In this document: in pieces, positions 8,607-22,141 of the stretch
How the letters are laid out: each line of letters starts with the position of its first letter
Numbering within the stretch: position 1 is the stretch's first letter
IMG/VR virus record: IMGVR_UViG_3300021093_000062
Location: 1 to 64,000 of that record
Direction: 5' to 3' (one strand)
Length of the DNA: 64,000 bases
Source: a virus
Notes under the pieces: model-generated
The model's input: only the letters and a program-made list of their open reading frames with translations
What the model was told of the DNA's origin: nothing
Database searches by the model: none
Made by a program: the position numbers and the translations under genes

Positions 8607-9125
8607 TTAACCAAACATAATGTCGCCGTACATAGCGTACTGCCAGAACAGGTCCTGGCTTTCGCTGTCCACGTCGTCTTCTATTACGTCTTTAAGCAAA
8701 GTTTGAGCCCAAACTTGATCCACGGGCAAAGACTTTAAAACTTCGATAATGTCTGGAACACTGAAAGTTTTGGTTACTTCGAAACGGGAAACGTGCCCCA
8801 ACTTGCTTATAGCACGCGCCTCAATCTGACGGACGCGCTCGCGGGTGAGATTGAATTGCTTGCCCACTTCCTCGAGGGTGCGGGGTTCGCCCCGATCGAG
8901 GCCGAAGCGAAGTTTCATGATCTCGCGCTCGAACTCGTCGAGAGTGTTTTCTGGGTCAACCATAGTAATAGTTATGAGGCCATCTTGTCTTTCAACGCGA
9001 TTAACCCAACTATACCAAGCATTGCCGGTTAACATGTCAAAAACTTCGTTTTCATCCAAAGTTAATGTTGTTGGCAACAACAGTGTAAACATGTGTTTTT
9101 TTGTTTTCATTTTCATTTGAGTCAC
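8607..9125 (-). CDS. Sigma-70 region 4-like transcription regulator
   Basis: 172 residues from a GTG in a GTGA overlap; ATG at 9116 is an alternative start. Residues about 61-111 are a clear sigma region 4: [16 protein letters not shown], then [20 protein letters not shown], the helix-turn-helix that contacts the -35 element. There is no region 2 or 3; the first 60 residues and the last 60 are unrelated to sigma factors. It could redirect RNA polymerase to phage promoters, act as an anti-sigma-like competitor, or pair with the WhiB proteins, whose known partner in hosts is precisely sigma region 4. The pairing is inference. Confidence 0.8.
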
Positions 9126-16021: not shown

Positions 16022-17293
16022 TCATTCTGGTGCCAGAGGGTGCTCCACGTCGGGCACGGCGGGTTCTTCAGGCTGAGGCTCAAACTCAGCACGAAGCATG
16101 TCTTCGATGCCACGGTCCTTGATGATTTCGGATACCACGATCTTCTCGTTTTGAGAGACGAACTGTCCCATGAACGCCCACAAGCTGAAGTCAACTCCAA
16201 GATGAACCAAGTCGCCTTCAAGCAACTGCAACGATTTGGTACCGATTGGAGTGGTTATACTACGTTGTGCGCGAGCGTTACGCAATGCCTGACCAAGCAA
16301 ACGTATAGCAGGAGACTTGATCAGTTTCTTTTCCACTTCTTCATCGTAATTCCATTCCAACAACTTGAAGCGGTTGGCAAAGGCTTCGTTCGTCTTGGAC
16401 ATGCCAGCATAACCGGGATTCCATGAGGAAAGAATCCACAAGTTTTTGTTGGCATGTACGATTTCGGGACGGAACGAACCCTCATGGGTTTCCACTCCAG
16501 TAACCGGATCGGTGAACACTCGTCCGTCCCACACCGGCTTGCGGATGTTGACGAACTGGTGACGGTTGTCTAGCAACGGGTGGATCGCAGCGGTAACAGC
16601 ACCGCTCATTGCGTTCACCTCGTCAAGGTACAAGATACCGCCGATACGTACCGCTAAGGCAACAATGCCCTCCATCCACACCAACTGCTCCTGACCATTG
16701 GCAACCACTGGTCGGTACTGGCCAAAGAGGTCATGGTCGGTGATTGCTGACGAACCGGCAAGAGTAAAAACCGGTAACGGTTTGCTAAGTCCCAACTGCT
16801 GTGCCACCTTGAATGCCATAACTTGAGTTAAGTATGTCTTACCTGACTGAGTGTCGCCCACTAGGGCGATAGACACCGGATACCCGTCGTTCTCGTCACG
16901 ACGATTGAAGTATTTCATCATCACGTCGATATCGGTGAGGTTTCCTGCAAGAGTACGGGATACGTAGTTCTTGGGGTCGATGTTCGGTCGGAACGGATCG
17001 AGCGCCGGATCATCCAACGACTCGATTCGCAGGTTGCTGACTATCACCGCGTGCTGGTGCTGAGGGACATTGGACGCGGCGGCGTTTGGGACGTTGGAAC
17101 GTCCCAAGATAACAATGCCTTTGGGCAGTATCTCAACGACGCCCAGCATAGGCTCATCGAACGTCACTTCGATTTTGCTGCCGGGGCCACCAGGCACCAA
17201 CGTTGCTCGGGTGATTGTTCCTTCGGCATTCTTGAACGGCGGGTACTTACCCATCACTCTCATGCCTTCTTTTAATTCTTTGGTACTTGCCAT
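16022..17293 (-). CDS. MoxR/CobS-like AAA+ ATPase
   Basis: Start chosen at ATG 17293, nine bases after AAGGA; an ATG at 17302 touches that site. The 423-residue product has Walker A GDTQSGKT (about 146-153), Walker B GILYLDEVNA (about 218-227) and sensor-1-like WILSSWNPGYAG, then an arginine-containing helix (ANRFKLLEW). These place it with MoxR/CobS ATPases, hexameric remodellers that operate with VWA partners such as the gene just downstream. The N-terminal 70 residues look like a small beta-barrel. The segment upstream (17294-17386) carries a GTGAC-N4-GTCAC dyad. Confidence 0.9.
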   Translation of the reverse strand: MASTKELKEGMRVMGKYPPFKNAEGTITRATLVPGGPGSKIEVTFDEPMLGVVEILPKGIVILGRSNVPNAAASNVPQHQHAVIVSNLRIESLDDPALDPFRPNIDPKNYVSRTLAGNLTDIDVMMKYFNRRDENDGYPVSIALVGDTQSGKTYLTQVMAFKVAQQLGLSKPLPVFTLAGSSAITDHDLFGQYRPVVANGQEQLVWMEGIVALAVRIGGILYLDEVNAMSGAVTAAIHPLLDNRHQFVNIRKPVWDGRVFTDPVTGVETHEGSFRPEIVHANKNLWILSSWNPGYAGMSKTNEAFANRFKLLEWNYDEEVEKKLIKSPAIRLLGQALRNARAQRSITTPIGTKSLQLLEGDLVHLGVDFSLWAFMGQFVSQNEKIVVSEIIKDRGIEDMLRAEFEPQPEEPAVPDVEHPLAPE

Positions 17294-17370
17294 TCTTACC
17301 ATTCCTTGTCTCGTGTTGTTTTACCTTGTATAACAACCCACAAACTCATGGGAGATGCGGGGATCTTGAT

Positions 17371-20035: not shown

Positions 20036-20173
20036 GGTTGTAACAGCGGGTTACCTTTCCCAGCGAGCAAGAGAAGACGGATAATGAACCAAACCGTCTT
20101 GTGCTGGTGATTTAACGCCATGATGTCGCAGGTTACCCTTAACCCGGAAAGGACGGGGCTAGCTGTTACAACC
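20036..20173. ncRNA. Pseudoknot-like structured element closed by a 12-bp stem
   Basis: GGTTGTAACAGC (20036-20047) is perfectly complementary to GCTGTTACAACC (20162-20173). Inside, GGGTTA (20048-20053) matches TAACCC (20140-20145), and the adjoining CCTTTCC (20054-20060) matches GGAAAGG (20146-20152); these two pairings cross, giving a pseudoknot or a two-state switch. CCAGC/GCTGG (20060-20064, 20103-20107) and AAGACGG/CCGTCTT (20074-20080, 20094-20100) form an inner arm. On the minus strand it follows tRNA-Arg by two bases and ends 28 bases before the zinc-ribbon gene, so it may be a processed RNA or a 5' leader. No known RNA family is recognised. Confidence 0.6.
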
Positions 20174-20175
20174 AG

Positions 20176-20248
20176 TGCATCAGGAAGGGGTCGAACCTAC
20201 AACCTACAGATTAGAAATCTGTTGCTCTATCCATTGAGCTACTGATGC
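20176..20248 (-). tRNA. tRNA-Arg (UCU)
   Basis: Minus-strand cloverleaf: acceptor GCATCAG/CTGATGC with discriminator A, D-arm GCTC/GAGC, anticodon stem ACAGA/TCTGT around loop TTTCTAA (anticodon TCT), variable loop, and T-arm with TTCGACC. One T-T mismatch lies in the T stem. CCA is not encoded. It decodes AGA (and AGG by wobble), codons common in the phage genes. Confidence 0.93.
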
Positions 20249-20249
20249 A

Positions 20250-20930
20250 TGTCATCGGTGGGCACAACAAGCATGTGCGGGAAGTTCCTCGAACTACAGC
20301 CTACACTACCTAGGATGTGTACTGTATTCTTCTCAACTCTATGCAGCTTACAGTTGTTGATAATCCCATTGTTATCATGCCTATTGTAGGAAGCCATTTT
20401 CGCTTCATACATAATAGGGTTCGATGGTTACCTGCCCGACAACACACAGGTAATGGCTAGGTACTAGCAGCCACGACTAGGATGTGTAAACCCCACTTAC
20501 GCCTGGGGGTACGGCGTTTTCGCGTTGGCTGTCTTTATATAGTACATCAGTCTACATTACTCATGGCCAACACTACACGAAGTAGCATGTTAGGATTCTC
20601 ACCAAAGAGACTATACAGTCTGTTTGTATAGTGATTTTGCTACTACATTTACCGTGATACTGCCCACGGCTGCAACCTGTGCAACATAGAAATAGGAAGC
20701 ATTTGCACATGCTTTGGTTTATGAACCACTACCTGCCGGGATACACCCAATGCGTTTCTATTGCGCATCTGTACACTTGTAGTTCTGCAGAACTACGCAC
20801 TGCGTCTAGTGCCTAGGTCGGCTGTACATCACCGCTTAGATCTTAGTCCTCTGCGAAATTTCTGCGATGCTCACTTCACTTGCTCCTTTTCTAATAATGC
20901 CCCACTCAAATATGGTGGAGTCAATGGTTG
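20250..20930. ncRNA. Candidate large structured non-coding RNA beside tRNA-Arg
   Basis: No supported protein gene lies here. The stretch is packed with inverted repeats: ACTATACA/TGTATAGT (20610-20632), GTAGTTC-TGCA-GAACTAC (20779-20796), TTACCTG/CAGGTAA (20428-20453), ATGCG/CGCAT (20750s-20767), GCACT/AGTGC (about 20797-20812), and a long-range 10-bp match AAGCATGTGC (20269-20278) with GCACATGCTT (20705-20714). A 12-base direct repeat CTAGGATGTGTA occurs at 20310 and 20477. Large ornate RNAs of phages (GOLLD, ROOL) are known to sit next to tRNA genes and have this size, so they are the first candidates. Family membership, ends and strand are not established. Confidence 0.5.
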
Positions 20931-21131
20931 ATACAGCCAACAACGATCTTGCCAGTGCATGGATCAGCCAGTCTTGCAGGGGGTGAGACGGCGATCAACA
21001 TACACTGGCTTATGCCGTATACAAGGCTATGTGCTGATAGCAACTACAAATGGGGGGTGAGTAGTGCTAAAGCAGACGTTGCACTCAGACAACCTGGCAC
21101 AACGAAAGCATAGACCCATACATAGGCACAA
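20931..21131. other. Gene-free stretch, nothing definite
   Basis: A 61-codon frame (20928-21113) starts at TTG without a ribosome-binding site and is not credible. The segment contains GTATAC-type AT steps but no clear promoter, hairpin terminator or tRNA. It may be the 5' flank of the structured RNA region or part of an origin or control region together with the repeat array that follows. Confidence 0.4.
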
Positions 21132-21210
21132 GTTGTGACATTTGTCACATGATAGTGACAAGTGCCACATGGTGAGACATTTGTCACATGGTGAGACATT
21201 TGTCACACTA
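21132..21210. repeat. Four-copy 19-20 bp repeat array with GTGAC-type dyads
   Basis: Units built on GACATTTGTCACATG begin at 21137, 21157, 21176 and 21195 (spacings 20, 19, 19). The first is a full dyad TGTGACA-TT-TGTCACA; the second is diverged (GACAAGTGCCACATG); the last two share GTGAGACATTTGTCAC. Spacing near two helical turns would place bound proteins on one DNA face. Such arrays serve as operators, replication iterons or partition sites. A related dyad lies at 17371-17384. Confidence 0.75.
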
Positions 21211-21940: not shown

Positions 21941-22141
21941 GTTGTCTCCTTGTCGTAATGCCGGCGCTTGTCGCCGGTCATGCCATCGTTATGGGGGCGA
22001 CCGGAAAGCGTCCTCGGTAGGGCCCAGCCCCCAATGATCACCCCACTACGCAATAGCCCTATTCTAAATGGGGGGTTACCCGTGGGTAACTGGGCACCTG
22101 GGTATAGGGTAATATAGACCTATACACAAGAAGGTTAACAC
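21941..22141. promoter_or_regulatory. Divergent control region
   Basis: This gap separates the minus-strand gene from the start of the plus-strand late arm. It contains a GC hairpin CCGGCG/CGCCGG in the leader of the minus gene (about 21961-21977), a near-palindrome GTTACCC-GT-GGGTAAC (22075-22090) and, for the plus strand, GGGTAATATAGACCTAT (22107-22123), whose TAATAT could be a -10 element. The TAGACCTAT tail recurs at 22981-22989 beside another -10-like TATAAT. No -35 box is obvious. Confidence 0.5.

Follow-up and report, generated by a model that had tools for sequence, protein, structure and literature searches.

To our knowledge, few classes of phage RNA of the size and complexity considered here are known. 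The best-known large phage RNAs that we are aware of are GOLLD and ROOL; neither has an assigned function, though both form RNA cages. GOLLD builds an RNA-only oligomeric nanocage, and ROOL is an abundant transcript that assembles into an octameric nanocage. Both are phage and prophage RNAs found near tRNA islands, and their cages are formed through kissing loops and A-minor contacts (PMC12286853). The kissing loops reported in the GOLLD oligomer are palindromic, and a Met-tRNA precedes GOLLD env-38 (PMC12286853). In ICP1, the most abundant phage transcript, about 800 nt long, comes from an ORF-less space and has been likened in length to GOLLD and ROOL (PMC7567579).

The DNA analysed here is a window of 64 kb (64,000 nt), part of a 68,574-bp virus record, in which the initial annotation had described a hairpin-rich block as a candidate GOLLD or ROOL RNA or a new class. 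As claimed there, the block abuts a tRNA, tRNA-Arg(UCT) (Table 1). With this tRNA at its side and tRNA-Met upstream of it in relatives, it agrees in location with GOLLD (RF02032), which likewise lies near tRNA genes in phages and prophages and is large, ornate and pseudoknotted. Many members of the GOLLD family are longer than 800 nt, whereas the block RNA measures about 590 nt and its counterpart in a second group of phages (the L008 type) about 400–480 nt. ROOL (RF03087), too, is a phage RNA of large size that sits close to tRNA islands and contains pseudoknots and kissing loops, but the block RNA has no match to its covariance model. The ICP1 transcript is likewise a large non-coding phage RNA; however, that phage has no tRNAs, and the likeness drawn here is one of description. 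tmRNA (RF00023) is pseudoknot-rich and carried among tRNA genes by some phages, but in the window and relatives ARAGORN gives tRNAs only, with no tmRNA call, and Rfam gives no tmRNA match. A compressed 81-nt Rfam tmRNA match, unannotated in the record, lies inside the tRNA array of phage LuckySocke (L082:17977-18057).

Genomic setting and non-coding status

The window virus likely has an actinobacterial host: terminases of Streptomyces phages (LuckySocke, Alone3, BRock and others) share about 45% identity with its own, and a short part of the protein encoded at 13601-15946 matches Gordonia phage proteins. Leftward genes below 20 kb and rightward genes above 22 kb leave a gap between them, in which the block sits. 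Positions 20111-21026 (916 nt) form the largest stretch of the 64-kb window without an ORF of at least 70 aa on either strand; ORFs within the block reach at most 57 aa. Their frames break among the three distinct copies described below, as judged by inspection of the translations, and a conserved protein in the block was rejected on this ground. The earlier statement that the block has no credible coding frame is borne out, no frame being kept in relatives L004 and L054. Its gene-free extent of about 680 bases holds as to the lack of a coding frame, but non-coding DNA runs on to about 21340.

Relatives were gathered with the MoxR-like ATPase (16022-17302) as query, which gave 30 viral loci. 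The same block is found at the corresponding position in the genomes of L004 and L054; L002, L053, L055 and L071 are copies of L004, from the same or near-identical contigs. The three distinct copies (window, L004, L054) have a mean pairwise identity of 66%. In L008, L009, L010, L011, L013 and L015 the syntenic position holds a different-looking block, that of the L008 type. Searching by DNA pattern found 26 stretches, among which the homologous ones are copies of the L004 block alone; L080 was rejected as a homologue, being a chance match. By blastn, the block region gave tRNA matches only among INPHARED phages and no match among plasmids, and the genome contigs searched held neither a match to the tRNA pattern nor a relative of the MoxR-like protein.

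In the relatives, tRNA-Met(CAT) comes first, followed by one or two small ORFs and then by the block, tRNA-Arg(UCT) and the operon. tRNA-Met is absent from the window, where 20850-20885 spans about 35 nt, compared with about 777 nt (tRNA-Met plus two small ORFs) in L004; this interval is an apparent deletion relative to L004. At the junction, a short frame with a GTG start (SIAEISQRTKI), behind AAGGAG, is similar to the opening of the lost L004 ORF (MNIKEIEEL) and could be its remnant. Downstream, a DUF3846 protein gene (PF12957; 17863-18273, minus strand) follows tRNA-Arg at about 2 kb; in L008-type phages, DUF3846 relatives come directly after tRNA-Arg.

Two further structured elements flank the block and tRNA-Arg (Table 1). 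The 12-bp outer stem of the smaller element is kept in the window, L004 and L054 with compensatory changes; L015 has a similar inner motif after tRNA-Arg, and the other L008-type phages are apparently without it. The leader hairpin is also present in L004, and L008, L009, L011, L013 and L015 carry it as GCCAGUG/CACUGGC or GUCAGUG/CACUGAC. In a single copy, a gene-poor, hairpin-rich stretch without a tRNA (L028:2860-3200) lies just before the operon of that distant relative and may be another structured RNA.

The divergent intergenic region of the window holds three GACATTTGTC palindromes (21137-21204), and similar palindromes occur in relatives. Together with the DnaA-box words found in the corresponding gene-poor region of L028 and L030, they suggest a replication origin.

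Covariation, strand and predicted fold

In the window family, which comprises three distinct sequences only and whose helices were partly picked by eye from them, nine hairpins are formed by all three and hold 17 double-compensated pairs. The hairpin test admitted stems of at least 5 pairs with loops of up to 14 nt and used 1000 class-preserving column shuffles as its null; in these, double-compensated pairs averaged 0.27, with a maximum of 4. Five hairpins have at least two such pairs, against at most one hairpin in the null. Among six coding controls of similar length, double-compensated pairs numbered 0–4, and no control had more than one hairpin with two or more.

In the named nine-helix structure, 97.3% of cells are paired and both sides have changed in 16 pairs; shuffling the 3′ letters gave 6.3 such pairs (0/500) and sliding the structure 0–4. 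The structure was hand-drawn from helices in the tested sequences, so the sliding control is biased in its favour. For the L008-type family the corresponding count is 10, with 3.8 when shuffled (0/500) and 1–2 when slid. Two other measures were set aside. The plain column-shuffle null proved too lenient on coding DNA, where one MoxR control reached 29 double-compensated pairs against 12, and RNAalifold energy was rejected as evidence, coding DNA also beating its shuffles. Because both pass coding DNA, weight is put on the stricter hairpin test and the nine-helix test. Covariation in homologues, which the initial annotation had named among its checks, is present beyond the null in the three window-type copies and, separately, in the six syntenic phages. 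The block is almost certainly a conserved structured RNA of the minus strand. Single-sequence folding gave z = −3.07 for the minus and −2.76 for the plus strand, with 0/20 dinucleotide shuffles as stable; covariation is much stronger evidence of structure than this folding energy.

The strand and ends had initially been left open. Read on the minus strand, the copies have 41 conserved local helices (G-U pairs allowed) with 23 double-compensated pairs; the plus-strand reading gives 26 and 18. These counts favour the minus strand moderately, and base composition may contribute to them; tRNA-Arg and the operon are also on the minus strand. Conservation in the three copies begins near 20835, a few bases past a stop codon in each, and extends to the base preceding tRNA-Arg. 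The strand can thus be given as minus, with these conserved limits; the transcript ends are placed by inference. The minus strand at 20.9–21.3 kb showed no sigma-70-like promoter. The promoter scan gave a sole minus-strand candidate at 22111-22138, and the number of sites found equals chance expectation. The protein encoded at 8607-9125 (minus strand) has a sigma-70 region 4 domain (Pfam PF04545, E 1.7e-16) and may be a phage sigma factor, in which case the absence of recognisable sigma-70 promoters could have an explanation.

Table 1. Positions of structured RNA features and the adjoining tRNA in the window
Feature	Position	Strand	Sequence or pairing	Evidence and remarks
Smaller structured RNA	20036..20173	-	12-bp closing stem	Directly after tRNA-Arg; 3 double compensations
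tRNA-Arg	20175-20248	-	Anticodon UCT	ARAGORN; Rfam RF00005, 70.8 bits
Large structured RNA	20250..20835 (about 590 nt)	-		Homologous site in L004 and L054; compensatory hairpins; transcript ends predicted
Hairpin P13	20428..20453	-	UUACCUG/CAGGUAA, loop GUGUYRUCGG	3 double-compensated pairs (2 by narrower count)
Hairpin P12	20453..20474	-	GUGGCUG/UAGCCAU	4 double-compensated pairs
Helix P9	20582..20643	-	GUAGCA/UGCUAC around a variable insert	2 double-compensated pairs
Hairpin P8	20652..20669	-	CCGUG[GGCAGUAU]CACGG	L054 short by one base per side, i.e. one whole pair
Pseudoknot PKb (predicted)	20703-20709 with 20678-20684	-	P7 loop UGUGCAA with UUGCACA	Helix covariation
Hairpin P7	20697..20714	-	AAGCA/UGCUU	Stem covariation
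Pseudoknot PKa (predicted)	20755-20761 with 20686-20692	-	P4 loop AUAGAAA can pair with UUUCUAU	Hand-placed
Hairpin P4	20750..20768	-	AUGCG/CGCAU	Hand-placed pairs, checked
Hairpin P3	20779..20796	-	Palindromic loop CUGCAG	4 double-compensated pairs; loop identical in all three copies
Hairpin P2	20797..20812	-	GCACU/AGUGC; ACACA/UGUGU in L054	2 double-compensated pairs
Conserved 5′ segment of the large RNA	20813-20835	-	GCGGTGATGTACAGCCGACCTAG	
Upstream leader hairpin	20951..21010	-	GCCAGUG...CACUGGC	Adjoins divergent intergenic region

At least two helices of the window-type RNA are predicted to be pseudoknots. The 3′ strand of PKb starts 12 nt past the P7 stem, and the pairing changes from GUGCAA/UUGCAC to GUGUAA/UUACAC. 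The partner strand of PKa forms the link between P7 and the 3′ half of PKb. Each of these pairings requires a single bulged base in L054. In P3, the stem is altered at four of five pairs while the CUGCAG loop is invariant; this loop is a candidate self-kissing loop and a lead to follow, since a lone palindromic loop may be due to chance. Two features singled out initially are present exactly in the window and fare less well in the relatives. The 10-bp pairing of 20269-20278 with 20705-20714 is interrupted by a C-A mismatch in L004 and absent from L054, and covariation assigns its bases to P7 and PKb; the 12-base direct repeat (20310 and 20477) is not conserved. Judged by these comparisons, both are lineage-specific or incidental, not defining.

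The L008-type structure contains an H-type pseudoknot, GGGC[..GUGUAA]GCCC then UUACAC, of the same kind as in the window type. Core models of the two families (R1 and R2) gave no match to each other's family and none in more distant relatives or in the Streptomyces phage LuckySocke. Because the core models do not cross-match, homology is not claimed; the two types are linked by position and motif order only.

Proposed role and competing explanations

We consider it probable that the block specifies a large structured phage RNA (about 590 nt) of a new class, linked to tRNA-Arg, with a folded body. It would be read from the minus strand within a leftward transcript and co-transcribed with tRNA-Arg. 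Since the conserved sequence runs up to the tRNA, the RNase P cut at the 5′ end of tRNA-Arg would also free, and so set, the 3′ end of the RNA. The RNA would fold into numerous short hairpins held together by two or more pseudoknots and would serve as a folded body, not as a message or a base-pairing regulator. It might also self-associate by way of the invariant CUGCAG loop, much like GOLLD and ROOL, to which it has no detectable relation; the palindromic kissing loops of those RNAs (PMC12286853) support this idea. A role as a scaffold or self-associating body is a tentative proposal to which we would give less than even weight. That the window and L008 types are two branches of one undescribed phage RNA class in the GOLLD/ROOL niche, forming homo-oligomers, in the window type via the CUGCAG loop, is an unlikely if conceivable extension.

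Because the block would lie inside a longer transcription unit, it may instead act in cis, controlling the expression or maturation of tRNA-Arg and the leftward genes (e.g. by antitermination or nuclease protection) with no separate existence. It shares the strand of the leftward genes, lies between them and the divergent intergenic region and abuts tRNA-Arg, which is consistent with such a role, as are the second structured element after the tRNA and the leader hairpin before the block. However, the length, pseudoknots and strong covariation exceed what attenuators and antitermination elements are generally known to need, and in relatives tRNA-Met and small ORFs precede the block, so that it is not itself a 5′ leader. 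We regard a purely cis-acting element as somewhat unlikely.

The proposed identity as GOLLD or ROOL found no backing in Rfam models, by cmscan or by single-model searches of eight records. At the curated thresholds of Rfam 15, only tRNA was matched in the window and in relatives; at relaxed thresholds there were chance-level matches and antisense tRNA look-alikes only. The GOLLD model RF02032 alone gave no match at E <= 10 in the eight records, nor did the ROOL model RF03087 alone, in a search where no positive control rang. The ROOL-only search is weak evidence without such a control, but the cmscan runs agree with it. Neither HEARO, OLE nor any other Rfam 15 family reached its gathering score, tRNA alone doing so, and cmscan for GOLLD, ROOL, HEARO and OLE, the check put forward with the initial proposal, gave no match. 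A literature search of open-licence papers found no description of the block RNA. The RNA is very probably distinct from every Rfam family, and the new-class alternative survives: a large structured RNA beside a tRNA, matching no Rfam 15 family but tRNA.

The block could still be a GOLLD or ROOL so divergent that the Rfam models fail to recognise it. Its phage tRNA setting, similar size range and pseudoknots would fit, and GOLLD env-38 lies downstream of Met-tRNA (PMC12286853), as the block does in relatives. Against this stand the single-model searches, silent at E 10 or better in the eight records (for ROOL without a positive control), and the full Rfam scans, silent even at relaxed thresholds; we judge such an identity quite improbable.

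RNA II of plasmid ColE1 is a folded transcript that acts at an origin. A corresponding primer or origin RNA beside an origin in the divergent intergenic region is highly improbable here: clusters of the DnaA-box word TTATCCACA in the gene-poor region upstream of the leftward operon in the distant relatives L028 and L030, the palindromes at 21137, 21176 and 21195 and a cumulative GC skew minimum near 22–23 kb speak for it, but in relatives coding ORFs and a tRNA come upstream of the RNA, hundreds of bases separate it from the palindromes, and divergent transcription alone can yield the skew.

Large folded RNAs beside phage tRNAs

If the block RNA is a new class, as we favour, then one more class, apparently unrelated to GOLLD and ROOL but in the same genomic position as they are, would argue for a recurrent need of phages for large folded RNAs beside their tRNAs. 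The block RNA would provide an independent set of sequences for finding what that need is. The two syntenic families described here have no detectable similarity, and such RNAs may change fast while their position is kept.
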